This document shows, piece after piece, positions 1-15,409 of a stretch of DNA of 54,471 nucleotides. The position numbers and the translations under genes were made by a program. Numbering within the stretch: the first letter of the stretch is position 1; the number at the start of each line of letters is the position of its first letter. Below the pieces are notes generated by a model. It was not told where the DNA came from and made no database searches. It was given only the letters and a program-made list of their open reading frames with translations. The stretch comes from a virus. The stretch covers positions 1-54,471 of the IMG/VR virus record IMGVR_UViG_3300035688_000006, one strand, 5' to 3'.

Positions 1-53
1 CTTAGCAATATGAAAATGGGTGCCAAGAAGGCCGGTCAGGGGAGCAGACTGAC

Positions 54-203
54 TTAGCAAACCTTACAGATCATCTCTGGCAATATCAGTAGCCGACCTA
101 TGCACAGACGATGGCTTAAAACCCGGCCCTCCTCGATATTTTTTAGACCATCTTTGAATGTTATGCCTAGCCGGGCCGCATCCTCTCTAAACGCTTTCGT
201 CAT
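54..203 (-). CDS. Small hypothetical protein, 49 aa
   Basis: A 49-codon reading frame begins one base after the stop codon of the holin-like gene. It has an AAGGA-type ribosome site in the end of that gene. The product is basic in its first half and ends in a hydrophobic Leu/Ile/Cys-rich segment (about residues 34-49). The tight spacing suggests translational coupling and a place in the same lysis-side operon. No family is recognised. It is the last gene before the window edge, so it may also be the last gene before the circular junction. Confidence 0.45.
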   Translation of the reverse strand: MTKAFREDAARLGITFKDGLKNIEEGRVLSHRLCIGRLLILPEMICKVC

Positions 204-204
204 T

Positions 205-531
205 TTAATCCCATCCTTCATTGTCTGATTCAGCGCGCGAATGTCCTTCTTCGTCCATGTTGTTGCCAGCCAATAGATTGGGCAGAAAAGCCTTGGCCAA
301 CTTGAATCCGCCCGTGGCGCCGATTGCGACCTGAACCCAGATCATGAACAGGGCGAACGTGAACGGCGTGGACGTCTCGATGGCTTTGTAACTCACCACA
401 AAGATTGAGACCAAGACGGCCAAGATCGTCCCGGCGATGGGCGCGAGATCATGGCCCAAGAGTTTCTCGAGCCCTTTCTTAATGATCTGCGTCGCCGCCG
501 CTGTCAGTGCGATTAAAGCTATGATGTCCAT
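205..531 (-). CDS. Holin-like small membrane protein
   Basis: The 108-residue product has three hydrophobic segments (about residues 2-16, 32-50 and 58-82) and a hydrophilic, acidic C-terminal tail rich in Asp, Glu and Asn. Small size, three predicted membrane passes and a charged tail are the usual profile of class I-type phage holins, which form lesions in the inner membrane and release endolysin. The gene sits in a run of other tiny membrane-protein genes (901-1655), which fits a lysis module. However, the recognisable peptidoglycan hydrolase lies far away at 18.7 kb. The assignment rests on topology alone; another small membrane protein is possible. Confidence 0.55.
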   Translation of the reverse strand: MDIIALIALTAAATQIIKKGLEKLLGHDLAPIAGTILAVLVSIFVVSYKAIETSTPFTFALFMIWVQVAIGATGGFKLAKAFLPNLLAGNNMDEEGHSRAESDNEGWD

Positions 532-555
532 AATGTCTCTCCTTTTCTAATAAAT

Positions 556-897
556 TTAATATACTCGCAAGTGTGATGACTTACTATGCAATCGACGATG
601 GCAAAACATACAAATCCAAATCACTTTGAGAGGTTTCTTATAATCCTCATGATGGGCTTGAATATTTTCCATCTTTCCGCATTTGCAATAAATCGGCCGA
701 ATTACTTTTCCTGATTCTATAAGATGTGCGATAACGTGTTGAGCATATATTTTCTCTGGATTTTTCTGACGCCATTTTTGTACCCTAGCTAGACATTTTT
801 CTTTTGTTTTTTCATAACTTACCGCATGATATCGTCTTTGAGCACCAGGATGCAATGAATTCCATGTCCGCTTATATTCAAACTTATCAAAAGGCAT
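556..897 (-). CDS. HNH/zinc-ribbon endonuclease-like protein
   Basis: This 113-residue protein has a basic N-terminus and a C-terminal zinc-finger nuclease-like region. A CxC pair (about residues 70-72) is followed by a His-His-x-Asp-Tyr stretch and then a Cys-x2-Cys-His motif ending in RRLH. That arrangement matches small HNH-type phage proteins, often free-standing homing endonucleases, in which the HH and following His/Asn residues bind the metal. The segment is more AT-rich than neighbouring genes, as expected for a mobile insert. The ribosome site is a weak AGG in an A-rich stretch. Nuclease activity is inferred, not shown. Confidence 0.6.
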   Translation of the reverse strand: MPFDKFEYKRTWNSLHPGAQRRYHAVSYEKTKEKCLARVQKWRQKNPEKIYAQHVIAHLIESGKVIRPIYCKCGKMENIQAHHEDYKKPLKVIWICMFCHRRLHSKSSHLRVY

Positions 898-900
898 TTT

Positions 901-1011
901 TTACCTTTTTTTTGATGGGATATTTTTATAACTCAGCCGGACAATGCCTTTCCCGAGGGCGTAGCCGGCCGCTCCGAACAACAAGCAAAGCGCCCACTGC
1001 CACCACTTCAT
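901..1011 (-). CDS. Very small membrane protein, 36 aa
   Basis: A 36-codon frame overlaps the stop of the preceding gene (ATGA). The peptide starts with a Trp-rich patch (KWWQW), continues as one hydrophobic helix with a glycine/alanine core (about residues 3-22) and ends in a strongly basic tail (KNIPSKKR). This looks like a single-pass membrane peptide with a positive C-terminus. It belongs to a run of four tiny genes with membrane segments or coils (901-1655). A role in lysis, for example as a pinholin or antiholin, is possible but unproven. Confidence 0.5.
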   Translation of the reverse strand: MKWWQWALCLLFGAAGYALGKGIVRLSYKNIPSKKR

Positions 1012-1244
1012 TTCTGGCTATCCGTTCCCGGCGCGACTTCCGCGGATTCAATGACCGGCTCCTTCTTCTCTTCCAGGGGGATGGAAGGCTTGCCTCCGGT
1101 CAATTCCAACTTGGCCCTGGTGGCCTCTTCTGCGTTCAGCCATTCGAGCAATCTCCGAGTGGCCTCCTCTATCGCATCGACGGCTTCTTTGCGATACTGC
1201 GTGACCGCCACTTTTACCCTTTTGATGACCTCCGAATCTGTCAT
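1008..1244 (-). CDS. Hypothetical helical protein, 78 aa
   Basis: The N-terminal half (residues 1-50) is strongly helical and charged, with a Lys/Arg/Glu pattern typical of a coiled coil or short DNA- or protein-binding helix. The C-terminal 28 residues are proline- and glutamate-rich and probably disordered. The start codon overlaps the stop of the 47-aa gene upstream and its own stop overlaps the start of the 36-aa gene downstream, so all three are translationally coupled. No family is recognised. Confidence 0.55.
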   Translation of the reverse strand: MTDSEVIKRVKVAVTQYRKEAVDAIEEATRRLLEWLNAEEATRAKLELTGGKPSIPLEEKKEPVIESAEVAPGTDSQK

Positions 1245-1384
1245 GTTTTTGGCTCCTTTGTTGTAAGTTTTTCCTTAGGGGGAAAAACTACCTTTTCGGA
1301 TCTGTTCTTCCCCATCTCAAACCCCGCGACTAGCGCCAGAATGATATTTAAACAAACGCTGGCGAAAAGCAGGACACTAATCAT
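1241..1384 (-). CDS. Small membrane-anchored protein, 47 aa
   Basis: A good GGAGG ribosome site precedes the ATG at 1384. The 47-residue product has an N-terminal hydrophobic helix (about residues 2-21) and then a basic, proline-containing tail. It has no cysteine in a lipobox position, so it is not an obvious lipoprotein. Its start overlaps the previous gene and its stop overlaps the next, so it sits inside a coupled string of small genes. It is probably an inner-membrane peptide of the lysis or host-takeover set. Function is unknown. Confidence 0.5.
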   Translation of the reverse strand: MISVLLFASVCLNIILALVAGFEMGKNRSEKVVFPPKEKLTTKEPKT

Positions 1385-1655
1385 CGCTTCCCTCCTTTCG
1401 GTTTATCCCGAGCGCCTTGAACGCCTCTTCCCGGGCCGAGTGCCTTTCCTGCGCCCTCTCCTCAAAATCCCTTTCGATAAAATCCCTTTCGATTCTCTCT
1501 TCGGCTCTCGACGCCCAGGGCGAGAACGACGTCGCCAGTAACGCCGCCGCGAAAAATCCCAAAAAGAAAAGCGCCCCGCCGATGATCACCACGGCCCACA
1601 GCGGGAACCCGGGCGATACTCCGATCCCCAAAAACTCCACGATTGCTTTCGTCAT
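1377..1655 (-). CDS. Single-pass membrane protein with charged helical tail
   Basis: The ATG at 1655 overlaps the stop of the RuvC-like gene (ATGA); an upstream in-frame extension would run through that gene and is rejected. The 92-residue product has a short N-terminus, one strong membrane segment (about residues 18-40), then a long Arg/Glu-rich amphipathic helix. A cytoplasmic N-terminus, one membrane pass and a periplasmic coil is the usual plan of an inner-membrane spanin (Rz-like), but no partner lipoprotein is nested here. It could equally be another membrane-tethered phage protein. Confidence 0.5.
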   Translation of the reverse strand: MTKAIVEFLGIGVSPGFPLWAVVIIGGALFFLGFFAAALLATSFSPWASRAEERIERDFIERDFEERAQERHSAREEAFKALGINRKEGSDD

Positions 1656-2116
1656 TTGCCCTCCTCTCCATATTTTTCCTTGGCATAGGCCAGGATAAGC
1701 CAAGCCTCTGCCTCGTCCTCTGAATTGAAAGACCGGCCGGCCCTCCGGACCGCCGCGGCTATCATTTCCGGTTTTTTCGACTTCCCCGTCTTGGTAGCCC
1801 ATTTCTTTAGCTCCATCGAATGGACCATGCCGTACTGGATCCCCCGCGCCGCGCAATATTCCTGGACTCGAGTAGCCATCCCAACCAGGACGTCATTCGC
1901 CGCGCCTCCTCTACAATGGGGCTGTTCGTAAATAACCAAGTCCGGCTTTTCCCTGTCCAAGCAATCCCGCAGCCAGGATCCCCACCGCAGGAACCTCATG
2001 CCGCGGCTTTCTCCCCTGCTTTCCGAGACCTGGAAGAAACCTGATTCTACCGGACCGCCGCCCGGATCCATGGCAAATCCCGTTTTTAACCCAAGGTCCA
2101 ACGCTATGATTTTCAT
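1652..2116 (-). CDS. RuvC-like Holliday junction resolvase
   Basis: The 154-residue protein has the RNase H-fold pattern of RuvC. It opens with a beta strand ending in D7 (ALDLGLKTGFA), has E64 at the end of the second core strand (VIYEQPH), a Gly-rich segment, a KKWATKTGKSKK DNA-contact loop, and a C-terminal DEAEA motif supplying acidic residues D134 and E137. These match the four acidic metal ligands of RuvC resolvases, which cut four-way junctions symmetrically. In phages this activity resolves recombination or replication intermediates before packaging. It lies in the replication group with the replication organiser and PD-(D/E)XK-like genes. Confidence 0.85.
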   Translation of the reverse strand: MKIIALDLGLKTGFAMDPGGGPVESGFFQVSESRGESRGMRFLRWGSWLRDCLDREKPDLVIYEQPHCRGGAANDVLVGMATRVQEYCAARGIQYGMVHSMELKKWATKTGKSKKPEMIAAAVRRAGRSFNSEDEAEAWLILAYAKEKYGEEGK

Positions 2117-2323
2117 CTAATGCGTCCTTTTCCCCTCTTCGATTTCCTCTTCATCTCCGATTGGGATGGCCAGGAGACCCAAATCTTTTACCGGCCCCAG
2201 CTTGTCCCAGTCCCTCTTGGCCTTCCTTATCGCCTTTGCCTGGGCCTCGCCCGAGTCTGTGCTCTCGATGAATATGTCGACAAACTCTGAGAATTTGAAC
2301 ACCCGGATTTTATGGATTATCAT
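2117..2323 (-). CDS. Hypothetical protein, 68 aa
   Basis: The ATG at 2323 overlaps the stop of the replication-organiser gene. A longer in-frame version would lie inside that gene and is not used. The product starts with a beta-strand-like segment, has a Lys/Ala-rich helix in the middle and ends acidic. It was probably co-translated with the replication organiser. It resembles small phage proteins of unknown role that sit next to replication genes. No family is recognised. Confidence 0.55.
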   Translation of the reverse strand: MIIHKIRVFKFSEFVDIFIESTDSGEAQAKAIRKAKRDWDKLGPVKDLGLLAIPIGDEEEIEEGKRTH

Positions 2324-3129
2324 TTTCTTGCCTTCCCCACCATTTTCTCTTTCTTTCTTTCTATCTCGATCTTCCGGCCCATCTTGAACCAATTCCTGAA
2401 CTGCAAACAAAGATTCGACTTCTCTGTCGGTGGCTGCTTGATCCAATGAGTCAATTTTCCCTCGATCTCCTCACAGGCGTCCAAGTCCTTGAATTCCCAG
2501 GTCAGCATGACCAAATAATCGAAAAATGTTTTATCCTCTAGGAGATTTTCTCGGCCATACTTCTTGAATAACTTTGGGATTTCCTCAAGAGCTTGTTCTA
2601 CCCATTTGGGAGGCGGCACGTCTTTCTTCTCTTCGGGAGTGACTTCACCTTCCTCAGAACCAAATGGAAGCCTAAATAACTTCCCTTCTCTTAAATTCCC
2701 TTTACTTAACTTATCTTTACTTAAGCTTCCATTTGTATCCACTTGGGTTCCAACTGGTTCCATTTGGGTTCCAATCTCATGTTTTAAATATTCTTTTGGT
2801 TCTGGATATTCGGCCTTTTTGAGCCGATCCGTTTTGAACGTTTGATGCTTTTCAAAATCGACTATCTCCAAATATTTTTCATCCTTCACCACATATAATT
2901 TGATAAGTTCGATTTTCCATAATTCATCAATCCTACGGAATATTTCCGCCAATTTTATCTTCCTTAAGGTATAAACCTGCCCTTTCAATATCTCCGGTTC
3001 GGCGTGATACCGGCCATAATCATCGGCTTTAATGTTAACGCGATAGTATAAATTCTCGGCACCCTCAGAGATGGCATTAATTTTCTTGCTCAGGATAACT
3101 ACCTTGTCGATCATGCGTCCTCTGGCCAT
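2320..3129 (-). CDS. Replication organiser-like protein
   Basis: This 269-residue protein starts with a segment typical of phage replication initiators and organisers with winged-helix N-domains: a MARGRMID opening, a run ending in LYYRVNIKADDYGR, and a following helix-turn-helix-like stretch with IFRRIDELWK. The middle (about 120-185) is low-complexity and charged, a likely linker. The C-terminal 80 residues are helical and basic. In related phages such proteins bind the origin and load host helicase, which would suit a genome with no recognisable helicase or polymerase. It is placed between RuvC and the nuclease-like gene. The helicase-loading role is inferred. Confidence 0.65.
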   Translation of the reverse strand: MARGRMIDKVVILSKKINAISEGAENLYYRVNIKADDYGRYHAEPEILKGQVYTLRKIKLAEIFRRIDELWKIELIKLYVVKDEKYLEIVDFEKHQTFKTDRLKKAEYPEPKEYLKHEIGTQMEPVGTQVDTNGSLSKDKLSKGNLREGKLFRLPFGSEEGEVTPEEKKDVPPPKWVEQALEEIPKLFKKYGRENLLEDKTFFDYLVMLTWEFKDLDACEEIEGKLTHWIKQPPTEKSNLCLQFRNWFKMGRKIEIERKKEKMVGKARK

Positions 3130-3675
3130 TTAAAAATCCTTATAAGTTGTGATAAAAGCATTTTTTATTTTTTTTATAGGAAATGAATAAAAATTTGACG
3201 ATCCGTGTTTTATATTTTGTTGTAATTTCCCGAATTTTTCCAGCCCCCCCGCTTTTTCGACGATGATTTTATATTTTACGATATCGATCAACGCCCATTT
3301 AAAAAAATTCTCCTCCTTCTCATCCGCCCAACCATAAAAATAAATTTGTGCACCTAAAGAAAACCATTCTCCCGGATTCTCATATATAGTTCCGACTGCA
3401 TTAAAATATTCCTGCGTAAAATCTGCACCGAATGTCTTATAATAATAATAGGTTCTATATTTTTCCTGGATACTTATCCATTGACGACTCTTTAAATTTA
3501 TGAGACTGTCGATTCCAAACTCTTTGTCTAAGATATGGACCCTAACGCCCCGTTCTCTCAAATCTTTTAATTCGCAATCCGGGAATATCTTAGAATAAAT
3601 CTTTAAAGCAGCGGGTTTCATTTTTATCCTGAATTTTTCAGTGTCAGGTAGCCAAATTTTACGGTTATTTCCCAT
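3130..3675 (-). CDS. Putative PD-(D/E)XK-type nuclease-like protein
   Basis: The 181-residue product contains a pattern recurrent in phage proteins thought to have a restriction-endonuclease fold: an LDKEFGID stretch (about 49-56), then a strand with IQEKYR (about 69-74), giving the spaced Asp and E-x-K residues of a PD-(D/E)XK site, then a GEWF segment and an aromatic-rich W-x-D region. The gene is AT-rich relative to most of the genome, like the adjacent methyltransferase which it overlaps by 11 bp. That pairing raises the possibility of a linked nuclease-methylase unit. Activity is inferred from motif spacing only. Confidence 0.5.
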   Translation of the reverse strand: MGNNRKIWLPDTEKFRIKMKPAALKIYSKIFPDCELKDLRERGVRVHILDKEFGIDSLINLKSRQWISIQEKYRTYYYYKTFGADFTQEYFNAVGTIYENPGEWFSLGAQIYFYGWADEKEENFFKWALIDIVKYKIIVEKAGGLEKFGKLQQNIKHGSSNFYSFPIKKIKNAFITTYKDF

Positions 3676-4807
3676 AACAGGCTATTCTTTTTTGAGCTAA
3701 TTTTATATATTCAGGATCGATTTCAATTCCATGAAATCGCCTTTTTAATTGAATGACTGCGATTCCCGTAGTTCCCGATCCCATAAAAGGATCGGCAATT
3801 AATTCACCGGCTCTCGTTACTGCATTAACAAGCCACTTCATGACGGAGAGCGGCTTTTGGGTTGGATGCTGTTTTTGATCTACACCGTTAAAATTAGATT
3901 GGGGAACGGCGGCGACGTGGCAATCGAAATCATTCAATCCTTTTCCCCATTCCCCGCCTCCCAGATTAATCTCGCGATTGGAATCCATTTTCCTATAAAA
4001 AAAGATCGGTTCCCAGGTTTGTTTAAAACCGATTCTGCTTTGAGGGCTTTTATTGTTGGCGTAATGCCAAATGAGCAATTGCTGAAATTTATAGCCTTTT
4101 AAAGAATCATCGAACCAACGACGACCCTCCCAGAGATACCGTTGACTCCAGAAAATCAATATCGTCTCAGCTTTGCAAACTGACCATTCGGCCGCCCATT
4201 TTCTTGTAAAACTTTCAAGATCTTTAGGCTCCCATGATTCGTCTTTTATTCCATAGGGTGGATCGGTTATCAAACTAGCGCATTCGATGACGGATTGATT
4301 CGTAGTAATTTTATAATCTATTCCGGGACCGGCTTTAGCTAAAGCCGCTACTTCTTTCTCTTCATTTTTTAATTTCCGTATCTCTTTTAAAGCAGTTCTC
4401 AATATCGGCAAATTCTCCGTTTTTAAAGCTTCCTCTATGATCGATTTTATAATCTCCTGATATTCCGCCGCCCTCTGCGCATAGTGCGACGTTCTCTTGG
4501 ATATCCCGGGGGGGAGAATTGACGTGGTTCTATGCTGGGAACCACGTTCGGAATCAAATTTACTTTTGCTTTTATCAATCCCCCTCAGCAATTCCCCGAG
4601 CCTCACCCAAGCCCAAAGCAGACGCTCCGCCATTCGCTGCGCATCTTTTACGGCAGCGTCTCTGACGGCTCCCATTATATGAACTTTATCTATTGCCCGG
4701 AGTTGAGCTTTTTGCGCCTTTAATTTTTCGTCTCCTATTAAAATAAAATCTCTAATTTTGTCAATTGTAGCTGGCAAATCTTGCGGTCTCTTAATTATGC
4801 TTTTCAT
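3665..4807 (-). CDS. DNA N6-adenine/N4-cytosine methyltransferase with N-terminal DNA-binding region
   Basis: The C-terminal half of this 380-residue protein is an amino-methyltransferase of the beta arrangement. Catalytic motif IV TDPPYG (181-186) precedes the SAM-binding motif ADPFMGSGTTG (338-348), and a HPTQKP motif lies between. DPPY enzymes methylate exocyclic amines in DNA, usually adenine N6. The N-terminal 150 residues are helical and charged with a GISKRTSHYAQRA segment, like the DNA-binding leaders of phage methylases. It probably modifies phage DNA to evade restriction or to time expression. It overlaps the putative nuclease gene downstream. Upstream lies a promoter and a highly structured leader (4821-4964), so it appears to be separately controlled. 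Confidence 0.88.
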   Translation of the reverse strand: MKSIIKRPQDLPATIDKIRDFILIGDEKLKAQKAQLRAIDKVHIMGAVRDAAVKDAQRMAERLLWAWVRLGELLRGIDKSKSKFDSERGSQHRTTSILPPGISKRTSHYAQRAAEYQEIIKSIIEEALKTENLPILRTALKEIRKLKNEEKEVAALAKAGPGIDYKITTNQSVIECASLITDPPYGIKDESWEPKDLESFTRKWAAEWSVCKAETILIFWSQRYLWEGRRWFDDSLKGYKFQQLLIWHYANNKSPQSRIGFKQTWEPIFFYRKMDSNREINLGGGEWGKGLNDFDCHVAAVPQSNFNGVDQKQHPTQKPLSVMKWLVNAVTRAGELIADPFMGSGTTGIAVIQLKRRFHGIEIDPEYIKLAQKRIACYGK

Positions 4808-4820
4808 CTTATCCCTTTAA

Positions 4821-4930
4821 AAAAAATAAAACCCCCCGCAACCTATGAGAGAATGTGCTTCGCCTTGGATAAGGAAAGACATTCAGTCTTGGGGGGTTTA
4901 TATTCTTTCATGTACACATTCTCTCATGTC
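4821..4930 (-). ncRNA. Structured leader or small RNA with pseudoknot topology and terminator-like end
   Basis: Two perfect inverted repeats interlock. Arm B (ATGAGAGAATGTG, 4846-4858) pairs with CACATTCTCTCAT at 4916-4928. Arm A (TAAAACCCCCC, near 4828-4838) pairs with the GGGGGGTTTA stretch at 4892-4901. The order A-B-A'-B' is that of an H-type pseudoknot, or of two mutually exclusive hairpins. On the minus strand the A stem ends in a G6 run followed by a T-rich tract (4821-4830), like an intrinsic terminator. Two small hairpins (AAGAC/GTCTT and CCTT/AAGG) lie between the arms. The 5' end coincides with the start predicted by the adjacent promoter. Confidence 0.55.
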
Positions 4931-4934
4931 CCAA

Positions 4935-4964
4935 TTCTATTAAACTAAAATAGCCCTTGTCAAG
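4935..4964 (-). promoter_or_regulatory. Sigma70-type promoter for the structured leader and methyltransferase
   Basis: A perfect -35 TTGACA (4964-4959) is followed after 18 bp by TAGAAT (4940-4935). The expected start is near 4928-4930, exactly at the first arm of the structured RNA. Just downstream, ACATGAGAGAAT and ACATGAAAGAAT form an 11/12 direct repeat that could be a protein operator. Confidence 0.65.
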
Positions 4965-5063
4965 CGAAAAGATAAGGCCGGGAGGGAAGGGCGTTTTGAA
5001 AGGAAGTTGGCTAAGACCATAAAGGAGGGATCCCTTCCTCGCAGTGGACTCTCGGCCATTTAT

Positions 5064-5414
5064 TCAAGCCTTATTTTTTTCGACGTAGGCCCGGTAGGAA
5101 CTTGACAATTCTTCGGCCTCCGCTGGCGTAATAATGCCTTTCAGCATTATCTCCGTGATACCGCCGGCCTTGTCGATATCGGAAAATGTGAGGAGTCTTT
5201 CCGCAATCAACTTCGCCGCAAGTTCATCCGATATCTCGATCGCGTCCAATGGTTCCTCTGGCTTCTCCCCCGGCTGTTCGTTGAGCCCGTCCGCGATGCT
5301 CAAAACCGCGCACTGATTTAAACGCTTGTGCCAGAACCCACAATCCTCGCCAAAACATTGTCCCATCCAACCCGGGGGGATATCTGGCCTTCCAATAAAA
5401 ACTGGACATCTCAT
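5064..5414 (-). CDS. Hypothetical cysteine-containing protein, 116 aa
   Basis: A GGAGG ribosome site precedes the start. The N-terminal 36 residues hold four cysteines (C3, C20, C25, C35) and a Trp-His, suggesting a small metal-binding knuckle. The rest is acidic and helical, with a Pro/Glu-rich linker around residues 48-56 and a compact helical C-terminus. Many phage early regions carry such short zinc-knuckle proteins of unknown role. It heads the gene string read down to the methyltransferase promoter. A BamHI-like palindrome (AAGGGATCCCT) lies just after its stop. Confidence 0.55.
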   Translation of the reverse strand: MRCPVFIGRPDIPPGWMGQCFGEDCGFWHKRLNQCAVLSIADGLNEQPGEKPEEPLDAIEISDELAAKLIAERLLTFSDIDKAGGITEIMLKGIITPAEAEELSSSYRAYVEKNKA

Positions 5415-5430
5415 CTTTTACCTCCCATGT

Positions 5431-5697
5431 TCATTCCGGAAACTCTATTACCCCGGCCGTCAGGGCCAGAATATTGTACGCGCTGAACCCATATCTTGAT
5501 TGCAGTTCATTCGTTATCGGTCTGATATCGGCCTTTCCGATGGCCTCCGAGAATTTACCGCAGAGATTACGCAACGAATCAGCGCAGGCGATTCCGCGAT
5601 CTTCGGGCATGGCCGGACAGGAAGCGCAGCCCAACCCGTCGGGGACGTTTTTCTCCCGGCAATAATTATCTTGTTCGAGAAATTGAGCATGTGTCAT
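5431..5697 (-). CDS. Hypothetical cysteine-rich protein, 88 aa
   Basis: The product has cysteines at about positions 13, 24, 27, 38 and 46, including a CASC pair. This again suggests a small metal-binding module, followed by a helical C-terminal half. Its start codon overlaps the stop of the tiny membrane-protein gene upstream, with a GGAGG-like site in that gene. It resembles its downstream neighbour in size and composition. No family is recognised. Confidence 0.55.
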   Translation of the reverse strand: MTHAQFLEQDNYCREKNVPDGLGCASCPAMPEDRGIACADSLRNLCGKFSEAIGKADIRPITNELQSRYGFSAYNILALTAGVIEFPE

Positions 5698-5801
5698 CTT
5701 TCACCTCCCATATACTTTTTCATAAACCAACCGATCGAAACCATGAAAATCATGTAGAATATCCCGAGTCCGATCAGCCCCAGGACGTAGTATTCCATCA
5801 T
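5694..5801 (-). CDS. Tiny membrane protein, 35 aa
   Basis: The frame starts with two consecutive ATG codons, the first overlapping the stop of the preceding 56-aa gene, and ends overlapping the next start. The peptide is one hydrophobic helix (about residues 4-27, YYVLGLIGLGIF and onward) with a short basic tail. It is a candidate inner-membrane microprotein. Function is unknown. Confidence 0.5.
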   Translation of the reverse strand: MMEYYVLGLIGLGIFYMIFMVSIGWFMKKYMGGER

Positions 5802-5968
5802 TTTTTGAGCCAAACATCACCCTTATTATGAAAATATTTTATTGCCTCGGCGTGATTCTCTGCCGTGAGTCCTTCGGGATGAATGACTATCCATTCTGCG
5901 AGAATCAATTTCCTCCTCGCTAAAAACTCATGCAACCTTTCACGTCGTTCTTCCGATGTTAGTCTCAT
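5798..5968 (-). CDS. Hypothetical protein, 56 aa
   Basis: A strong AGGAGG site lies 6-8 bases before the ATG at 5968. The product is a charged, mostly helical 56-residue protein with a basic N-terminal half and a His/Glu-rich middle. It shares stop and start bases with the membrane microprotein downstream. No family is recognised. Confidence 0.55.
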   Translation of the reverse strand: MRLTSEERRERLHEFLARRKLILAEWIVIHPEGLTAENHAEAIKYFHNKGDVWLKK

Positions 5969-5980
5969 GCTTTTCCTCCT

Positions 5981-6172
5981 CTATTTTTTACCCCTTGGCT
6001 TATGCTCTATAATCCACTCTGGCTTAGGGCACTTACACCTTGAATAATGTTCGCCACATTTTTTGCATTTCCGATAAGCGAAAGAACCCATGCCCGCAAT
6101 GGAATTGAGCCGCTCTTTAATATCAGGGCAAACACATTCAGAAAGGTCTCGATTACATTTACAGCACCACAT
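5981..6172 (-). CDS. Small double zinc-knuckle protein, 63 aa
   Basis: The sequence contains two compact Cys clusters: CCKC followed by CVC in the first 16 residues, and CKKCG followed by CKC around residues 36-48. Each could hold one zinc ion. The remainder is basic. Such tiny double-ribbon proteins are common in phage early operons and may bind nucleic acid or host RNA polymerase, but nothing here points to one target. It follows the radical SAM gene by a single base. Confidence 0.6.
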   Translation of the reverse strand: MWCCKCNRDLSECVCPDIKERLNSIAGMGSFAYRKCKKCGEHYSRCKCPKPEWIIEHKPRGKK

Positions 6173-6173
6173 T

Positions 6174-6872
6174 TTATTTCTCCTTCATCAGCCTCTCAAG
6201 ATTCGTTTTCTTTTTTATGGGAACGCCGGCCACGGTTAGCATATAAATAAATCTCTCAACCTTTTCCCACAACGGCTCCTCTAATCCGCATCCCTTTGAA
6301 TCGGCACCTATGTTCACAAACTCTGGCTTTAGATTCATGAGCATAAGCGCCAGACCATCGGGGTCGAAATCAAGAATCGGCTCGACGGTGATAAAGATTT
6401 TAGCCGACGTTCTTTCCCTGAGTGAAAGCATGTCCAGAAAGCGCTTCATCGGCGGAGGGGCCATCGAGAGTCCGGGAACCACCCTGTTCGTCTCGATCGT
6501 CGTCCCGATCATAAAATGTGGAGGAAAAGAATCAATCAGAGACCTGGCTCTCCCTGGATTCTTTGTCTGAAAAATGTACTCATTATCCGGATACGCCTTA
6601 CAATGATTGAGTATCGAAAATATCATCCCTCCCGGCACCGCCTCCGCAAACATATCGTTCATGTGCTCGATGAAGATGATTTTCCCGGCACCGTAGTTGA
6701 CCCCGAACTCCGACTGAATCAACCGAAGGGGCCCACTATACCTAGCGCCTGGGCCGAACGCGCTCCGTTGCACGTAACAGTACTTGCACTTATGCGGGCA
6801 CTCGCCGCCCAGGTGAGAATGGGTATGCGTCACCCAGTCGTACATGTTGCCTTTGGATTTTTTCAAGCTCAC
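6174..6872 (-). CDS. Radical SAM-like protein of the phage Gp37/Gp68 (DUF5131) type
   Basis: Translation most likely starts at GTG 6872, which overlaps the stop of the upstream gene (GTGA) behind a GGAGA site; a longer frame runs through that gene. The 232-residue product has an early CPHKCKYC cluster (C25, C29, C32; a CX3CX2C radical SAM-type [4Fe-4S] site), followed by a TIM-barrel-like run with FIEHMNDMF, YIFQTKNP, IGTTIETN and TVEPILDF segments. These are hallmarks of the DUF5131 family found in many phages. The chemistry and substrate of this family are not known. It may modify DNA, RNA or a protein using S-adenosylmethionine. Confidence 0.75.
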   Translation of the reverse strand: MSLKKSKGNMYDWVTHTHSHLGGECPHKCKYCYVQRSAFGPGARYSGPLRLIQSEFGVNYGAGKIIFIEHMNDMFAEAVPGGMIFSILNHCKAYPDNEYIFQTKNPGRARSLIDSFPPHFMIGTTIETNRVVPGLSMAPPPMKRFLDMLSLRERTSAKIFITVEPILDFDPDGLALMLMNLKPEFVNIGADSKGCGLEEPLWEKVERFIYMLTVAGVPIKKKTNLERLMKEK

Positions 6873-7120
6873 GGCATCTCCTTGATTACTATTTTTTCTT
6901 CTTTTACTCTGCCTTCGATTTTTCCCTTTACGTTTTTCGCCCAAAAGTTAATCGTCACGAGCGGATAGGCGGATCCTGTCATCATTCGGCTTTCGACCCT
7001 AGCTCCGCATATTCCCTCAATCTTCTTACCGTCTATCTTCAAAAAGAACTCCGGCTCGATGCCGACCTTGGATGGGAAATTGATTTCCACCTCATGGAGT
7101 TTGTCTCCAAATGCGCTCAT
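6869..7120 (-). CDS. Hypothetical beta-rich protein, 83 aa
   Basis: The product alternates short hydrophobic strands with charged turns throughout, suggesting a small beta sandwich. Its stop overlaps the GTG start of the radical SAM gene, so the two are co-translated, which hints at a partner or substrate-presenting role. No motif is recognised. Confidence 0.55.
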   Translation of the reverse strand: MSAFGDKLHEVEINFPSKVGIEPEFFLKIDGKKIEGICGARVESRMMTGSAYPLVTINFWAKNVKGKIEGRVKEEKIVIKEMP

Positions 7121-7133
7121 TGATTTATGCTCC

Positions 7134-7433
7134 TTATTTCATCCCCAAGAGCTCTTTGATGGGCCTTTCCAATATTATCTTACCAAGCTGAGCTATATAA
7201 TTCTGATTGTGCGGCTTCGACAGGAACTCCAATAATTCTCTATCGTCCATTTTGTAGTCCGGCGCTGGCTCTTCGTCCAAACAGATTGACATCGCGAGAT
7301 AAACGACCGAGACCGGACGCAACCTTAGCCCCTCGGCGCTTGCTTCCATATCCAACATAAAAAAGCACCTGATCTTTTTCTTGAACTCCTCGTTCCCCAT
7401 GAACTCCGCAACCCTGTCATAATTTATCCTCAT
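7134..7433 (-). CDS. Hypothetical protein, 99 aa
   Basis: A helical protein with no recognisable motif. It has a hydrophobic segment around residues 41-52 (SVVYLAMSICL) that is probably buried rather than membrane-spanning, because charged residues flank it closely. The start is preceded by AGGAAGG. It sits in the run of small early genes that are likely accessory. Confidence 0.55.
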   Translation of the reverse strand: MRINYDRVAEFMGNEEFKKKIRCFFMLDMEASAEGLRLRPVSVVYLAMSICLDEEPAPDYKMDDRELLEFLSKPHNQNYIAQLGKIILERPIKELLGMK

Positions 7434-7443
7434 CCTTCCTCCT

Positions 7444-7683
7444 TTAAACCCGATACTTAAGAACGATACCGGGAAAGAAATATCTCGCCAACGCCTCGTC
7501 CAGCTTGCAGCCGTGAAGGGCTGTCCACCTCATCGCCCTCTTCCTATCGTCACAGTTGTTGCCACCGATGTAGGCAGCCCAGTCCACCTCCGGAGTTATC
7601 ACCGCGGCCACGGCCACCTCGAAACCGTTGGCGTTCCAATAAGGACCGTAAAGCAGAACGCGGCCGTCAATCAGCTCGATCAT
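7444..7683 (-). CDS. Hypothetical phage protein, 79 aa
   Basis: This short protein has a YIGG stretch and a C-terminal HGCKLDEALARYFFPG segment, a pattern I associate with small conserved phage proteins of unknown function. Its start overlaps the last base of the preceding gene's stop. The composition suggests a soluble alpha/beta domain. No enzymatic motif is seen. Confidence 0.55.
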   Translation of the reverse strand: MIELIDGRVLLYGPYWNANGFEVAVAAVITPEVDWAAYIGGNNCDDRKRAMRWTALHGCKLDEALARYFFPGIVLKYRV

Positions 7684-8180
7684 TATTTTACCTCCCTACA
7701 TTTGCAGTCGGCAACATTATTATTTTTTAATGTGCCCCATACTCTAATGCCGTGACAAAATGGACAAAATATAACAAAACACTTATTACATTTATGATTA
7801 TCCACTTCTCTGATTCTACAAATTGGACAGCTGCCTTCGCATCCACAATTACTCATCTCCCCTACCTCCATGCCGAGTTCGGCGAGCATGAGGATAAGAA
7901 TTCCACCGGTTATCACAGGGTCGTCCTTACCGACCGCAAGAATTCTGCGTGTCCATTCTGTTAATGTTTCCTTCGTCACCGTCCGCTTGGATTCGATGAG
8001 GACGTTTTTTTCTCGTTCAATAATAGATTTGATCTGGCCGAACAAATAAGCTATCTCATCCCGCGATAGAATTTTTCCATCTAATAAATATTGGAATTCC
8101 TCTTGCCACCAAAAAAATTCTACCTTTTCCTCTTTCGTCGGTTTCAGTTTGCCAAACTTGAGTTCACTTAGAAAGTTCAT
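7683..8180 (-). CDS. Hypothetical protein with C-terminal cysteine-rich zinc domain
   Basis: The first 105 residues are helical and charged. The last 55 contain at least eight cysteines in CGC, CPIC, CNKC, CPFC and CKC pairs plus histidines, consistent with two zinc ribbons. A zinc-ribbon tail on a helical body suggests a nucleic-acid-binding or protein-bridging role. The gene overlaps the start of its neighbour at each end. No named family is recognised. Confidence 0.6.
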   Translation of the reverse strand: MNFLSELKFGKLKPTKEEKVEFFWWQEEFQYLLDGKILSRDEIAYLFGQIKSIIEREKNVLIESKRTVTKETLTEWTRRILAVGKDDPVITGGILILMLAELGMEVGEMSNCGCEGSCPICRIREVDNHKCNKCFVIFCPFCHGIRVWGTLKNNNVADCKCREVK

Positions 8181-8788
8181 TCCTTCACCTCCGCACCGAT
8201 TAATTCAAGACCAAGAATCAATTCCTCAGCAACTGCCTTTGGTAAAAGTATTCCTTGCGGGCATTTAAAAAAGAACATGACTGAACCATTAAATGAAGAC
8301 CGTTCAATTTTAACACTCGGCTTCCGGGCCTTGATTATGGCGCGGATTTTGTCCGTAAGTTTCTTGGCGTTATAACATCCCCCTCTGAATCGGATCTCGC
8401 CCCTCGTCCCGATAAATGCCTCAACAATATCTGTCATTTCCTTCCTTTCCTCATCCGTCGGCTCCTTCGGCTCGTAATCAGCGCGTCCCTCTGCGTATCC
8501 GGTATCTCGGATAATCTTCGCCGCTGAAAATTCGACACCTAACTTCTCGGCTAGGCGCATTAGGCTTTCATTGCCGGTGATATTGATAAACGCTGGATTT
8601 GTTACGACAATTTTCTTCATTTGTTCAGAGGTCGCAAATTCAAAAGATATGTCCCCGTCTTTTTTCTCTTTGAGCATAAGCCGAAGTTGGGCGAGGGCGT
8701 TCCCGGCGATCGCACCAATCGGGGCGCACGTGTCGGCCAAGTGCTTCTCTAACCAATCTAACCATGCCAGCAACGCTTCATTTTTCAT
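8177..8788 (-). CDS. Hypothetical protein, 203 aa (parent of an adjacent partial copy)
   Basis: This soluble, mixed alpha/beta protein shows no catalytic motif. Its C-terminal third contains a KIRAIIKARKPSV segment that is nearly repeated in the partial copy immediately upstream (8785-8931), and both end in EVKE. That indicates a local duplication followed by decay. The gene is translationally coupled at both ends (ATGA). Its function is unknown. Confidence 0.6.
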   Translation of the reverse strand: MKNEALLAWLDWLEKHLADTCAPIGAIAGNALAQLRLMLKEKKDGDISFEFATSEQMKKIVVTNPAFINITGNESLMRLAEKLGVEFSAAKIIRDTGYAEGRADYEPKEPTDEERKEMTDIVEAFIGTRGEIRFRGGCYNAKKLTDKIRAIIKARKPSVKIERSSFNGSVMFFFKCPQGILLPKAVAEELILGLELIGAEVKE

Positions 8789-8931
8789 TCCTTCACCTCC
8801 ACGCCATGAATTTTAAGAAATTCAACGATAGAGCCACCCTCGTATGAAAAATCTCGTATTTCATCCATAGTCACGCTCACCTTCGGGGCCTTGATGGTGG
8901 CGCGGATTTTGGAGAAAAAGAAAAGGTCTCT
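8785..8931 (-). pseudogene. Decayed C-terminal copy of the neighbouring 203-aa gene
   Basis: Forty-eight codons without a stop encode a segment with KIRATIKAPKVSV, matching KIRAIIKARKPSV of the next gene at 10 of 13 positions, and ending in VEVKE like the next gene's AEVKE. The DNA also shares a run near GGCGCGGATTTTG. The stretch is in frame with the upstream gene 8932-9168 and separated from it only by that gene's TAG stop. A short product from ATG 8868 is possible, but I read this as a remnant of duplication or recombination. Confidence 0.5.
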
Positions 8932-9168
8932 CTATGCATGATACCGTGCATCCTGTGATGTGTTATTCTCAAATATGAAACGGATTGTCGGCTCCTTGCT
9001 ATCTAACCACGCCAATATTTCCTTTAGGTCTTCCTGTACCGGCCCCAGCAAAATATCATAGAGCTGGACCAGGGCCTCCCTATCTTCTTGCTTGACATCT
9101 ATGAGAGGGGACAGAAGTGTCATCCACCTGGAAATAATGCTGTACAACTTCACGTTGGAAAAATTCAT
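8932..9168 (-). CDS. Hypothetical protein, 78 aa, possibly truncated
   Basis: The product is helical in its first 60 residues with a hydrophobic N-terminal third. It ends at an amber codon that is followed in the same frame by 48 more sense codons resembling the C-terminus of the neighbouring gene. It may therefore be the front of a chimeric gene truncated by a nonsense mutation. The start overlaps the stop of the HNH gene. No family is recognised. Confidence 0.5.
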
Positions 9169-9602
9169 TTCTTCACCTCCTTCAATTTCTGGATTTCTTT
9201 TTTCAAGGCCTGGATCTCCTTACGTAAAGTTTTATTTTTAATAATAATCCTATAGATATCTTCAGAATGTTTGGTTTCTACACCTCGTGAATGAAGTGTA
9301 CGAGAAAGCAATTGAAGATTCTCGATTCTATTATCGTCTTTAATTCCATTTCGATGATGGATTATTTCTAGGCCAGGTTGTAATTTTCGTCCTAAATATT
9401 TTTCAAATATCATTCTATGTTCTTGTGTCCATTTATCGCCTGTCCAAATAAGAACATATCCTCCATTATCTGTTCTTCTTTCTCCTTTTTGAGGACCTAA
9501 TTTTGATGAACAATCTAGACAATAATATCTATAGCATCCCCGTTTTGTCTTTCTATCATGGGTCTTTCCGCAAACTACGCAGATTCCATCCTGGGTTCCC
9601 AT
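9165..9602 (-). CDS. HNH homing-type endonuclease
   Basis: The 145-residue protein has an N-terminal zinc ribbon (CVVC near 8-11 and CLDC near 28-31), then the HNH_3-type core [35 protein letters not shown], and ends in a Lys/Glu coiled coil (about 118-145). The HH...N...N residues are the expected metal and catalytic positions. It closely resembles the plus-strand HNH protein at 31639-32115 in its core. It is AT-rich and sits between ordinary small genes, fitting a free-standing homing endonuclease that cuts alleles lacking it. Confidence 0.8.
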
Positions 9603-9890
9603 TTAACCCAACCTTTCGATACGTTTTTTTAATTCACTGAGTTCTTTGAGCGCTTTTAATTTTTCGGCCTTATCGGATTTTATTAAACCCAAATATCTTC
9701 CAACGAGAATAGCATTGTAATCGGAAGGTTCCTGATTCTTTCTTTCCCAATTATATAATGTTCGATAAGATAGTCTGCAATCTTTCGCGACCCGATATCT
9801 TGTTATCTTTTTTGAGAAAAGCAAATTCTTCAAATTAGGCCCTCTAAGCTGCCCTTTCAATATTCTGAGGTCTGCGGTATCTATATTCAT
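9603..9890 (-). CDS. XRE/Cro-type DNA-binding regulator
   Basis: The 95-residue product carries a helix-turn-helix with the Cro/C1 pattern (YRVAKDCRLSYRTLYNWE, about residues 32-49), followed by a helical tail with Lys/Glu heptads that could dimerise. Directly upstream is a good promoter (9935-9963) whose start region contains a perfect 16-bp palindrome (9913-9928), the natural binding site for such a dimer. It is likely to regulate its own transcription and that of the downstream small genes. It may act as a switch between early stages, since no lysogeny genes are evident. Confidence 0.7.
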   Translation of the reverse strand: MNIDTADLRILKGQLRGPNLKNLLFSKKITRYRVAKDCRLSYRTLYNWERKNQEPSDYNAILVGRYLGLIKSDKAEKLKALKELSELKKRIERLG

Positions 9891-9912
9891 CGTTCATTGC
9901 TCCTATACCCTA

Positions 9913-9928
9913 GATTCATATATGAATC
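9913..9928. promoter_or_regulatory. Perfect 16-bp palindromic operator
   Basis: GATTCATATATGAATC is a perfect palindrome lying from about +1 of the adjacent promoter, between it and the XRE-type gene it serves. Position and symmetry fit a repressor dimer site, most simply for autoregulation by the 9603-9890 product. Confidence 0.6.
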
Positions 9929-9934
9929 ATACAT

Positions 9935-9963
9935 ATAATATACTACTGAGGTGATATTATCAA
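9935..9963 (-). promoter_or_regulatory. Promoter upstream of the 9603-9890 regulator gene
   Basis: TTGATA (9963-9958), 17 bp, TATTAT (9940-9935); each hexamer differs from consensus at one base. The -35 overlaps the last codons of gene 9960-10166. Transcription would begin near 9928, inside the palindrome. Confidence 0.65.
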
Positions 9964-10166
9964 GCCCTTTTGCTGGAAACCTCTGCGTTTCGCTCGTCTC
10001 GCCGGCGTTTCATATCCTCGGACATGCCACTGTCGGCTAGACAGTTTAAATAGAACTCGCACATGAAGCAGCGCATTTGCTCCACCGGATTGTTGAAACA
10101 GTCCGGGATGACTGCGGCCGAGACGCTTCGCTTGGGCTCTTCAAACTTTATCGGGATTTGGTCCAT
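9960..10166 (-). CDS. Hypothetical protein, 68 aa
   Basis: The product has an internal CFMCEFYLNC cluster (three cysteines, about 33-42) after a proline-rich N-terminus and ends in a basic helix rich in Arg and Glu. A single small metal site is possible. It is the last gene before the regulator promoter, and its 3' end is overlapped by that promoter's -35. No family is recognised. Confidence 0.5.
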   Translation of the reverse strand: MDQIPIKFEEPKRSVSAAVIPDCFNNPVEQMRCFMCEFYLNCLADSGMSEDMKRRRDERNAEVSSKRA

Positions 10167-10181
10167 TGATGTACTTCTCTT

Positions 10182-10415
10182 TCACTGGTCCAAGGCTTTG
10201 CGGACGGCCTCGATGCCGACGTCACGATCATTCATTAGGTCAAGAAAACACAAAACTATGTCCCTGATCTTTTCAAGCCGCTCGAGCTTCATGATGATTT
10301 CCTCAAGCGCGGCTATTTCCTCCGCCCACAAATTATCCTCCCTATACGTTAAGGACCTGGACGCATAGCCATTACAATCCTCGAGCCTTTTCTTCGCCCA
10401 ATCTATCGCCCTCAT
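10182..10415 (-). CDS. Hypothetical helical protein, 77 aa
   Basis: This is an all-helical protein with a leucine/glutamate-rich central stretch (about 30-60) that may form a coiled coil. It overlaps the stop of the gp3-like gene upstream by the ATGA arrangement, so it is likely co-translated with it. No motif is recognised. Confidence 0.55.
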   Translation of the reverse strand: MRAIDWAKKRLEDCNGYASRSLTYREDNLWAEEIAALEEIIMKLERLEKIRDIVLCFLDLMNDRDVGIEAVRKALDQ

Positions 10416-11443
10416 TTGAGCACCTTCCCCTTGAGCGCCTCATTCGCCACTATGAAATAATCTATGGCCGAGGACAATGCCATCTCCTTCATCGCGTCGA
10501 TCTGCTTTAACCGCGCTCCCATCTTGGGCCCGATTTTCCCGCCGGCCTTCTCGAACTTGGCCACGAGGTCCAGTAGGTCCAGGCGTCGCCTATCCAGACT
10601 GTCTGCCTGGGGCTTCTTCTCCTCCTCCGGCTCTTCGCCTTCGGGGACTTCGCCAGCCGGGGACTCGGCGCCCTCCTCGGCTGCTGGCTCGTCCGGGAAA
10701 AATAGCGGATCCCTGGTCTCGTCTGCTGGCGGCAACTCTGCGACCTTGTGGTCGGGAAGTCTGGCCGGGCCTCTCACGTCGTCCAGCGTCTTGTAGAACC
10801 GCGGGTCCAGGTCCAGCATCATGATAAAATGTTTGCCTTTATGCGTCTTCCCTTCGGAGATATGTTGGGTAGATTCTTCGCGGCGAGTCAGGATAAGTTT
10901 GACGGAAGAAACATCGACATTATGAACGATACAGTGCTCGAGAAGATCACGGCAGAACGAATTGATATTAACCAGCGAATTAAAACTACCGGTAGTGATC
11001 TGATAGACATTTAGGGAAGCGATCGAATTTATTCTGAATCGGAAGATCCCAATTTTTTTGCATTGGCCCGAGTCAAAATAGGCGCATGGACATTCCCGCT
11101 CTTCGAGCTTGCTCGTATCGTCATTTATGCGGACGGCGGTCTCTCCGTCGCCCTTGCAATAAAGACCGGAAGATCTATACATCTTAAGGAACTGGGGAAA
11201 AATGCGGTCAAGATAGAGATGGAAATCCTCCTTCTCGAATCGGGCGGATGGGAGGGAGATATGCAGGATATGGGTCTCCTCTCCGTAGATCTTCTTCAAC
11301 TCCGGCGCGTCACGTAGGATGAAATTATCACATTCCGAAGGATACTCCACGGCCTTTCCATTCACCATTTTTGTTTTTTTAATTCCTAAATGGATTTTTC
11401 CCGATCGAATCGGGCGATAAATTGACGTCACTCCTTTAATCAT
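10412..11443 (-). CDS. Recombination directionality factor-like protein (phiC31 gp3-type family)
   Basis: The 343-residue protein follows the pattern of the gp3-like family, often labelled hydrolase or metal-binding protein: an N-terminal RPIRSGKIHLGIK, a GLYCKGDG stretch with CPC and GQCKK cysteines (likely a zinc site), and the FNSLVNINSF and KLILTRREES segments. In phiC31 the relative controls integrase direction, yet no integrase is recognised here, so another role in replication or recombination is likely. The C-terminal 130 residues include an acidic Pro/Glu-rich linker and a helical tail. It lies directly downstream of the Cas4-like nuclease, suggesting a shared DNA-processing pathway. 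The ribosome site is GGAG. Confidence 0.65.
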   Translation of the reverse strand: MIKGVTSIYRPIRSGKIHLGIKKTKMVNGKAVEYPSECDNFILRDAPELKKIYGEETHILHISLPSARFEKEDFHLYLDRIFPQFLKMYRSSGLYCKGDGETAVRINDDTSKLEERECPCAYFDSGQCKKIGIFRFRINSIASLNVYQITTGSFNSLVNINSFCRDLLEHCIVHNVDVSSVKLILTRREESTQHISEGKTHKGKHFIMMLDLDPRFYKTLDDVRGPARLPDHKVAELPPADETRDPLFFPDEPAAEEGAESPAGEVPEGEEPEEEKKPQADSLDRRRLDLLDLVAKFEKAGGKIGPKMGARLKQIDAMKEMALSSAIDYFIVANEALKGKVLK

Positions 11444-11446
11444 GTG

Positions 11447-12619
11447 TTATTTGTCTCCTTTCTTTTTCTTGATAATCCGAAGGCCCACGCCGCTCTCGTA
11501 CCGCTTCGATAGCTCGAACGTCGTAGCGTCCAGGATCCCGGCCTTCACCGCATCCCTCATCATTGTGATCTGCGGCTTCGCGATCGACGGCCACCTGTCC
11601 GCCGACACATTCGCCAAGAGGAAGGCGATGTCGATATCCACCTTCTGTGTTGCGATGGCTTGGACGAACTCCTCGATCTTATCCTGGCCCGTGGATTTGA
11701 AATATTGAAGAAGGACGCCGGCCGCTTGCTCGAGGTCTTTTTCCGCCTGCGAAATCTGTGCCTTCAAGCTGACATACGATGCGGCTGCCGACTGCACGAT
11801 CTCGTACGCCGGCGGCTTGATCGTTTCGTCCTTCTCAATCTTGGCTTCCGGGGGAAGGGGGATATCCCGCCAGCAATGCTCCAGGAACCGGCAGTACTGA
11901 CAGTCGACGCTGTCCCGGATATAAGGACGGTCGGGCAATTCGCTGGCGGTGATCTTCGCATGGAGCGACAGAAACTCGGACTTGATCGCCTCGACCCTGT
12001 CTTTCGAATAGTCCACCTTCCAAATCAAAATCGGCGGCGTTCCGAACCCTCCCCGGTCGATGTAAATGAGGAGACCGTAGTCGTGGAGCTTTATGTTCTT
12101 GAAGTAAGGATCGTTCCGGCAATCTTCCATGTAGCTCAAAAGCTGGTCGGTCTCATAATCCGGAGGCGGCTCCTTGAACCCGAACGGATTCTTGCTCTTG
12201 ATATCGCCGATTGCGATACACGTGCCCCCGATTTGCAGCAGAACGTCCAGGCGCCCCCGCTTCATGAACCCGACCTTCGACCAAGTCCCAAACTCGATGT
12301 GTTTCGATGTCGAGAAGCCGAGCGCCCTGAACACGCGCTGCAACTCGTCGTGGAAGAGGTCCCCCATTTTGAACATCATGATTGTCGACGCGGCCATGTC
12401 CCGCTTCACCTCGGGATTTTTGAATTGGTAGAAGATGGACCTGGGACATCGGCCGACGTCGCTTACGTAAAACCATTCCCTGGGATTTTTATCGCCTGTA
12501 TGGCCCCTCTTCCATTCCTCGACGTAGAAATTCAGGACGCCCTTCGTGATCTCATTATCATCCGGAAGCAATTCGACCTTGACATCGCCTCGGTCTTTTG
12601 CTAAACTTTCATTCGACAT
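11447..12619 (-). CDS. Cas4/RecB-family exonuclease-like protein
   Basis: Start at ATG 12619, behind an AAAGGAG site (a longer frame adds ten residues without support). The 390-residue protein has the four cysteines of iron-sulfur Cas4-type nucleases: C58 in a VGRCPR segment and C240, C243, C249 in CQYCRFLEHC. Between them are the PD-(D/E)XK residues: D125 in RGRLDV and D139-x-K141 in IGDIKSK. Such enzymes degrade or trim DNA ends and support recombination. The C-terminal 140 residues form an extra helical domain absent from minimal Cas4. No CRISPR array or other cas gene is present. It is paired with the gp3-like gene. Confidence 0.75.
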   Translation of the reverse strand: MSNESLAKDRGDVKVELLPDDNEITKGVLNFYVEEWKRGHTGDKNPREWFYVSDVGRCPRSIFYQFKNPEVKRDMAASTIMMFKMGDLFHDELQRVFRALGFSTSKHIEFGTWSKVGFMKRGRLDVLLQIGGTCIAIGDIKSKNPFGFKEPPPDYETDQLLSYMEDCRNDPYFKNIKLHDYGLLIYIDRGGFGTPPILIWKVDYSKDRVEAIKSEFLSLHAKITASELPDRPYIRDSVDCQYCRFLEHCWRDIPLPPEAKIEKDETIKPPAYEIVQSAAASYVSLKAQISQAEKDLEQAAGVLLQYFKSTGQDKIEEFVQAIATQKVDIDIAFLLANVSADRWPSIAKPQITMMRDAVKAGILDATTFELSKRYESGVGLRIIKKKKGDK

Positions 12620-12679
12620 CTTCAACTCCTTTCTTGTGGGGAAGGGCAAGAGCCTTCCGGCCTTTCCCCATCTTCATTC

Positions 12680-12973
12680 TCACTGAAACCTAGAAATGTC
12701 TCCAGCCTTTTTCGCCGCATCGTAATCATCCAGGAACCGCTTAACTACGGAGATTGTGGATGGATGTGGTTTTGTCTTGCCGAGTCCCCACCGGGATATC
12801 GTCATGATGCTGATGCCGATCTTATAGGCCAGAGCCTCCTCGCTGAGCCCCAACTCCTTTTTCATGGCCTTGAATCGGGGAAGTAGCGAATCCAGCACCT
12901 CTTCCATAATGACGCTCCGGACCCCGCGCGTATACGCCGGAACCTTGATAACCCTTTTATTCTTTTTCTTCAT
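12680..12973 (-). CDS. XRE-type regulator, candidate controller of the early promoter
   Basis: This 97-residue basic protein contains a clear helix-turn-helix (LAYKIGISIMTISRWGLGKT, about residues 48-67) of the XRE/Cro type. Its own promoter (12992-13020) shares 22 of 29 positions with the strong promoter at 18482-18510, including the half-sites of a dyad. This regulator therefore probably binds both, repressing itself and the early operon. A GGAGG site precedes the start. It would be the key timing switch in a phage without a recognisable CI repressor. Binding is inferred from promoter similarity. Confidence 0.75.
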   Translation of the reverse strand: MKKKNKRVIKVPAYTRGVRSVIMEEVLDSLLPRFKAMKKELGLSEEALAYKIGISIMTISRWGLGKTKPHPSTISVVKRFLDDYDAAKKAGDISRFQ

Positions 12974-12991
12974 CTGATACCTCCATTGGGG

Positions 12992-13020
12992 ATATTACCA
13001 TAAGCCTAATCATGTGTCAA
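12992..13020 (-). promoter_or_regulatory. Promoter of the XRE regulator with early-operator-like spacer
   Basis: TTGACA (13020-13015), 17 bp, TAATAT (12997-12992), with a TGG just before the -10 (extended -10). The spacer reads CATGATTAGGCTTATGG and matches the early promoter's operator at most positions. It overlaps the end of the clamp gene. Confidence 0.65.
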
Positions 13021-13751: not shown

Positions 13752-13765
13752 CCTTTGTCCTCCTT

Positions 13766-14089: not shown

Positions 14090-14097
14090 TTTTCCTC

Positions 14098-15390: not shown

Positions 15391-15409
15391 GTTATTCTTT
15401 CCTCCCTTT

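Follow-up and report, generated by a model that had tools for sequence, protein, structure and literature searches.

In classical transcription attenuators, the antiterminator is built from bases of the terminator stem. In phage P4, a leader RNA, the CI RNA, and premature termination control the replication operon, with separate complementary sites and a processed antisense RNA. The put RNA of phage HK022, according to an excerpt of PMC9378689, consists of two stem-loops within about 70 nt and binds the β′ zinc-binding domain of RNA polymerase. At the Gifsy-1 IsrK locus, as outlined in an excerpt of PMC4825925, a phage promoter gives rise to a short terminated RNA, which acts in trans, and to a read-through mRNA. 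The leader analysed here lies in a 54,471-base stretch of DNA (the window) that carries genes for phage portal, terminase, capsid and tape-measure proteins, and its two long stems interlock. A literature search, which cannot by itself show absence, found no description of this arrangement.

Promoter, terminator, Shine–Dalgarno sequence and ATG are all packed into 160 bases on the minus strand of the window. The initial annotation had proposed a TTGACA-18-TAGAAT promoter feeding directly into an RNA, and this promoter is present at 4963-4934 on the minus strand, with the −35 hexamer TTGACA at 4958-4963 and, after a spacer of 18 nt, the −10 hexamer TAGAAT at 4934-4939. It agrees with the consensus at 11 of 12 positions and is joint best among 37 promoter-like sites in window positions 1-20000; its spacing to the −10 predicts a transcription start at around 4927. 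Here, as for all other leaders below, the promoter and the transcription start are predictions from a match to the sigma-70 consensus. Another 11/12 promoter, TTGACA-17-TATTAT with a TG, lies at 18510-18482 on the minus strand, with no T run over the following 160 bases.

The 5′ arm of the first stem, B, opens the predicted RNA (ATGAGAGAATGTG, 4915-4927) and is complementary to its 3′ arm (CACATTCTCTCAT, 4845-4857) at 13 of 13 nucleotides (4927-4915 against 4857-4845). Because 100 dinucleotide shuffles give 0.15 exact 13-mer complements at most 160 nt apart per window, B by itself is just moderately surprising. The loop of B contains the 5′ arm of the second stem, A (AAACCCCCC, 4891-4899, with C6 at 4896-4891), located by folding and complementarity. 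The 3′ arm of A (GGGGGGTTT, 4829-4837, with G6 at 4837-4832), located by folding and a scan for T runs, forms the 3′ half of a predicted intrinsic terminator, whose U tract (TTTTATTTTTTTT, 4819-4831) overlaps the A-U end of the stem. This G+C-rich stem followed by a U tract has the make-up of an intrinsic terminator (−30.3 kcal/mol) and ranks strongest in the window in the scan for T runs after stems, consistent with the earlier suggestion that A, ending in G6 before a U tract, is a terminator. A simple terminator scan missed it because that scan has a loop limit of 8 nt, against the 53-nt loop of A. The A score of the window leader was reached by 14 of 300 shuffles. The Shine–Dalgarno-like AAAGGG (4813-4818, minus strand), read from the sequence, adjoins the U tract. 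We also observed that CUUAUCC in the leader loop (4873-4867) is complementary to GGAUAAG (4814-4808), which overlaps the Shine–Dalgarno sequence of the methyltransferase gene downstream; this pairing could be a translational link or else chance.

In the RNA the four arms run in the order B5′-A5′-B3′-A3′, with the A 5′ arm inside the loop of B and the A 3′ arm beyond B, so that the interlocking of a 13-bp B with a crossing C6/G6 stem A, as initially described, is confirmed by complementarity. The B arms have no base in common with the A arms (4899-4891/4837-4829), and the segment shared by the alternative stems of a classical attenuator is lacking here. The minus-strand leader RNA folds better than its shuffles (z −2.9), an advantage that is smaller for the plus strand (z −2.2). 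When successive prefixes were folded, B was the minimum-energy fold at 84-96 nt, with −25.3 kcal/mol at 88-96 nt; once G6 had emerged, A won, reaching −37.4 kcal/mol for the complete RNA, in which the B 3′ arm is re-paired to GAAUGU (GAATGT, 4879-4884, minus strand). In a crude energy sum that adds one fixed penalty, the pseudoknot of B plus A comes to about −36.8 kcal/mol against −34.3 kcal/mol for A alone in the window, and equals or betters A alone in eight of the nine leaders described below, the exception being that of a related phage, G005 (−34.4 against −40.8). Because the pseudoknot estimate lies so close to that of A alone, B and A could in principle coexist, and B may therefore leave termination unaffected. 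A role for B as an antiterminator is no more than possible.

The leader precedes a minus-strand operon encoding a DNA methyltransferase (PF01555; 3665-4807, ATG at 4807), a 181-residue protein with no match in the family scan (3130-3675) and a replication initiation protein (phrog_1408; 2320-3129). Used as a search anchor, the methyltransferase yielded one weak relative in viral contigs and two in genomes, none of them useful. The better of the two genomic relatives, in a Schlesneria MAG (50%), was rejected as a leader carrier: its reading frame begins directly at the end of the upstream gene, leaving no space for a leader. For the neighbouring genes at 2320-3129 and 3130-3675 no relatives were found. 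A nucleotide search of 50,697 phage records returned no match for the window leader or for two of the leaders described below (L076 and L088), and two weak 24-nt matches only for the G005 leader. A search with the major capsid protein gave 15 loci; one of them, L003 (record G001), comes from what is essentially the window virus itself and spans only the right part of the window. The same 236-base stretch of G001 matches window positions 24475-24839 twice, offset by 129 bases, which suggests a direct repeat inside the open reading frame at 24448-25620. At 51512-52708 of the window, a single open reading frame comprises a ParB-like N-terminal part and a PAPS-reductase-like part.

A homologous leader was picked from the promoter and T-run listing of longer records in G005, and was also put forward by a structure scan whose other rows were weaker matches. 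G005 is alone in this among the long capsid relatives; G007 and G014 have no such leader. Its promoter (TTGACA-17-GATGAT) is followed by stem B (TGTGAGAGAACGC/GCGTTCTCTCACA) and stem A (AATTCCCGG/CCGGGAATT; score reached by 23 of 300 shuffles), then by a T run, a Shine–Dalgarno sequence and the start codon (ATG) of a replisome organizer gene. Between the window and G005, three B pairs change from A-U, U-A and U-A to G-C, C-G and C-G, while the core is unchanged. The compensatory changes that the initial annotation had looked to in homologues are therefore found: the changed pairs of G005 keep both stems, and two paralogous leaders in record G016 have B arms that differ in sequence yet remain complementary. 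Near the module, the window and G005 both have homologues of RuvC and DUF5131, but G005 lacks the methyltransferase. G005 also carries a match to the type II hammerhead ribozyme (L067:11627-11691, plus strand; 46.6 bits against a gathering threshold of 37).

We scanned viral contigs with a pattern combining TTGACA with GAGAGAA/TTCTCTC, which returned 58 loci. Seven of these, corresponding to six distinct leaders, have the promoter, B and an interlocked A: G005, G016-1 (L037), G017 (L045/L077), G019 (L076), G020-1 (L088) and G021-1 (L061). The arm pattern matches at one place per record in the window and in each of these records. A scan for structure alone, covering 189 loci (1.59 Mb), recovered the pattern leaders and added the second G016 leader (G016-2), with a different B sequence, and a scan of full records added a second G021 leader (G021-2). 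Patterns and structure-only scan together give nine leaders in seven phages, plus a weaker tenth on the plus strand, G020-2 (L199 +4976), whose B is bulged and lies farther from the start.

At stringent settings, the structure-only scan gave six matches in ten virus records, whereas 1.278 Mb of shuffled sequence gave none. The full architecture occurs at 9 of 176 promoters (at least 10/12) in ten virus records, compared with 96 of 78,000 random positions in the same records, a control that takes in positions near real leaders; five of the ten records, besides the window, owed their selection to the pattern scan. Once the window and the five pattern-only leaders are set aside, three remain (G005, G016-2 and G021-2) against about 0.2 expected from the random rate by our own arithmetic. 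This recurrence at promoters is the strongest argument against chance. Pairing counts are partly circular because five of the nine leaders came through the B pattern and the stems through complementarity, so the percentage of paired positions carries no weight alone. The A scores of G017, G019, G020-1 and G021-1 were reached by none of 300 shuffles, that of G016-1 by 41 of 300.

With loose settings, 45 matches in 1.82 Mb of real sequence compare with 25 in 1.63 Mb of shuffled sequence, and only promoters of at least 10/12 separate the two (12 real, one shuffled). Two of these 12, L114 and L199 −14633, were judged chance-like, and a third, L053, belongs to another leader type. The 29 cases of a promoter (at least 9/12), a long-loop terminator and a gene across all loci are mostly without a convincing B; three cultured-phage regions (L204-L206) contained no convincing leader, and a second pattern scan (96 stretches) gave no further member among the 80 loci listed. 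In a relaxed −35 search, the members found all have the full TTGACA. A large group from the second pattern scan (L126, L120, L094, L051, L086, L105, L108, L113 and L165) was rejected as a coding gene with TTCTCTCA in its codons. L050 (4024-4200, plus strand) has a promoter, a 12-bp stem and a GCCCCC/GGGGGC terminator, with an Erf-like annealing protein about 450 bases past the promoter; it was excluded, as the 5′ arm of its B overlaps the −10. The other leader type, set aside as having no evident terminator, occurs at L053 (minus 3730), L038 (minus 7261, the same as L079), L056 (minus 2220), L070, L072 and L087, where a closing stem GAGAGAA/TTCTCTC, an inner AAGTTCC and then a small hairpin directly follow strong promoters. 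GAGAGAA as a conserved recognition element is unproven: five of its seven carriers came from a search with this very motif, and G016-2 and G021-2, identified without it, do not have it.

The nine leaders share a geometry rather than a sequence. B starts 4-15 nt past the −10, the RNA, up to and including the T run, is about 100-132 nt long (about 107 nt in the window), and a start codon follows A after 6-27 nt in all nine, opening frames of 62-758 residues; with the tenth included, the distance stays within 30 nt throughout. The U tract is good in most of the other leaders and poor in G020-1. Crossing complementarity is present in nine of nine and, judged by rough energies, might allow an H-type pseudoknot, with linkers that vary (L1 14-36, L2 8-32 and L3 2-23 nt), and neither loop sequences nor loop lengths are conserved between members. 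Rfam gave no match to the leaders at gathering thresholds, weak ones falling far below.

The genes that follow are varied. The window leader precedes the methyltransferase, with the initiator two genes on; G005, the replisome organizer; the two G016 leaders, two proteins that are HNH-like by eye, the first without a family match; and G017, a primase. In G019 a 62-residue protein is followed by an SNF2-type helicase, and downstream of G020-1 a 409-residue protein by an AAA/Sak4-like protein. G020-2 heads a methyltransferase and then a DnaD-like helicase loader (E 3.1e-60), a layout close to that of the window, while G021-1 precedes an HNH endonuclease and G021-2 a DnaD-like helicase loader. A replication initiator, helicase loader or primase is thus among the first three operon genes at five of ten leaders, the remaining five preceding other DNA-metabolism genes or unknowns; a methyltransferase comes first in two of ten. 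Because the downstream genes differ, the leader does not look methylation-specific, and because there is no conserved loop and no Rfam match, no riboswitch is recognisable. The earlier proposal of leader control accordingly survives as an attenuator or small RNA but loses its riboswitch-like control of DNA modification, with differing genes, no aptamer core and no Rfam match. Judged from these sequences, the element looks like a general on/off gate, not a methylation riboswitch.

We assign a probability of roughly 50% to the leader being a cis-acting transcription attenuator heading a phage replication operon, in which B competes topologically with terminator A. The near-consensus sigma-70 promoter would produce an RNA of about 107 nt, whose first 13 nt would pair with a later segment, forming B, once that segment exits the polymerase. 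B would form first, because both of its arms are made before the second arm of A. The 5′ half of A would then be caught in the loop of B, and A could form only if B were undone or by pseudoknot threading, within a time set by the short stay of polymerase near the U tract. If A formed in time, transcription would stop some 12 bases short of the start codon, releasing a small structured RNA; if B held back the 5′ half of A, polymerase would read into the replication genes. B would in this way compete with A without sharing bases. We infer termination at A, its reduction by B and an input that shifts the balance; that input might be polymerase speed (the simplest candidate), a binding protein, or else a ribosome translating short leader open reading frames.

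The main product could instead be a free, stable, trans-acting small RNA, pseudoknotted with its 5′ end in B and its 3′ end in A, the genes living on read-through. We regard this as unlikely, even though B begins about at the RNA start (4-9 nt past the −10) in seven of nine leaders, the pseudoknot estimate is no worse than that of A alone in eight of nine, and prophage IsrK, as far as the excerpted account goes (PMC4825925), offers a precedent: loops are unconserved, unlike those of a trans-acting RNA with a common target, and a gene start 6-27 nt past A at every one of the nine leaders fits control in cis. A free small RNA, a possible product, is compatible with attenuation. Control by a ribosome translating a short leader frame is improbable. 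A frame starting in the B 5′ arm (ATG AGA GAA to TAA in the window), or a second ATG just after, could supply it, NTG-AGA-GAA starts occur in the B 5′ arm of six leaders, and an in-frame stop abuts the A 5′ arm in the window, G005 and G016-1; against this, the frames run from 7 to 38 codons with no common peptide, G021-1, G016-2 and G021-2 have none, a leaderless start would be required and GAGAGAA was itself part of the search pattern.

Placed directly after a strong promoter and before a terminator, as HK022 putL is in the excerpted source (PMC9378689), B might alternatively be a put-like RNA that binds elongating polymerase and carries it through A and later terminators. This is quite improbable, as put is described there as two stem-loops in about 70 nt where B is one long stem, interlocking with A would serve no need, and no conserved polymerase-binding surface is evident because the B sequence differs in the two leaders found without the pattern. 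Still less credible is that the B arms are DNA operators for a repressor, inverted sites about 57 bp apart, with the RNA fold incidental. One arm does overlap the predicted start site and the core GAGAGAA is common to seven leaders, but G-U pairs within the arms (L061, L037 and the end pair of the window) preserve RNA pairing and not DNA symmetry, and for this reason operators are disfavoured; moreover, both arms change together, and further copies of the arms in the window, at 20 matches (up to three mismatches) against 16.4 expected, show no excess over chance. Small pseudoknot riboswitches have a crossing topology resembling that of the leader. A metabolite riboswitch, sensing for example S-adenosylmethionine and governing the methyltransferase, would suit a leader that precedes an S-adenosylmethionine-using enzyme; the varied downstream genes, unconserved loops and lack of an Rfam match make it barely conceivable.

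More tentatively, the leader may represent a recurring class of 'knotted terminator' leaders that gate DNA-replication operons in tailed phages, with a hairpin at the 5′ terminus trapping the first half of the terminator in its loop and with control through topology and folding speed, not through competing pairs, although we hold this generalization to be doubtful. Were such a class real, its sequence would be free to drift, which would account for the lack of a catalogued family. It would constitute a structurally defined class of regulatory RNA, missed by sequence-profile searches since nothing but topology, spacing and position is conserved, and would give a testable handle on the timing of replication genes in uncultured phages. 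The leader also offers a clean experimental system in which to ask if a terminator still functions when a pseudoknot is the only form open to its hairpin.

Among described systems, IsrK resembles the leader in its promoter–terminator–gene layout, the only feature compared, and differs, in the excerpted account, by its action in trans. HK022 putRNA likewise is a cis-acting RNA near the 5′ end of a phage early-promoter leader; here, however, a single B stem without conserved sequence crosses A in place of the two stem-loops of the excerpted description. In P4, a phage replication operon is similarly under the control of a leader RNA and premature termination, but the separate complementary sites and the processed antisense RNA are particular to P4. 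Like intrinsic-terminator attenuators, the leader places a Rho-independent terminator immediately ahead of the first gene, preceded by a hairpin that may be its competitor; it differs from the classical ones in that B and A share no bases and would exclude each other, if at all, by topology.
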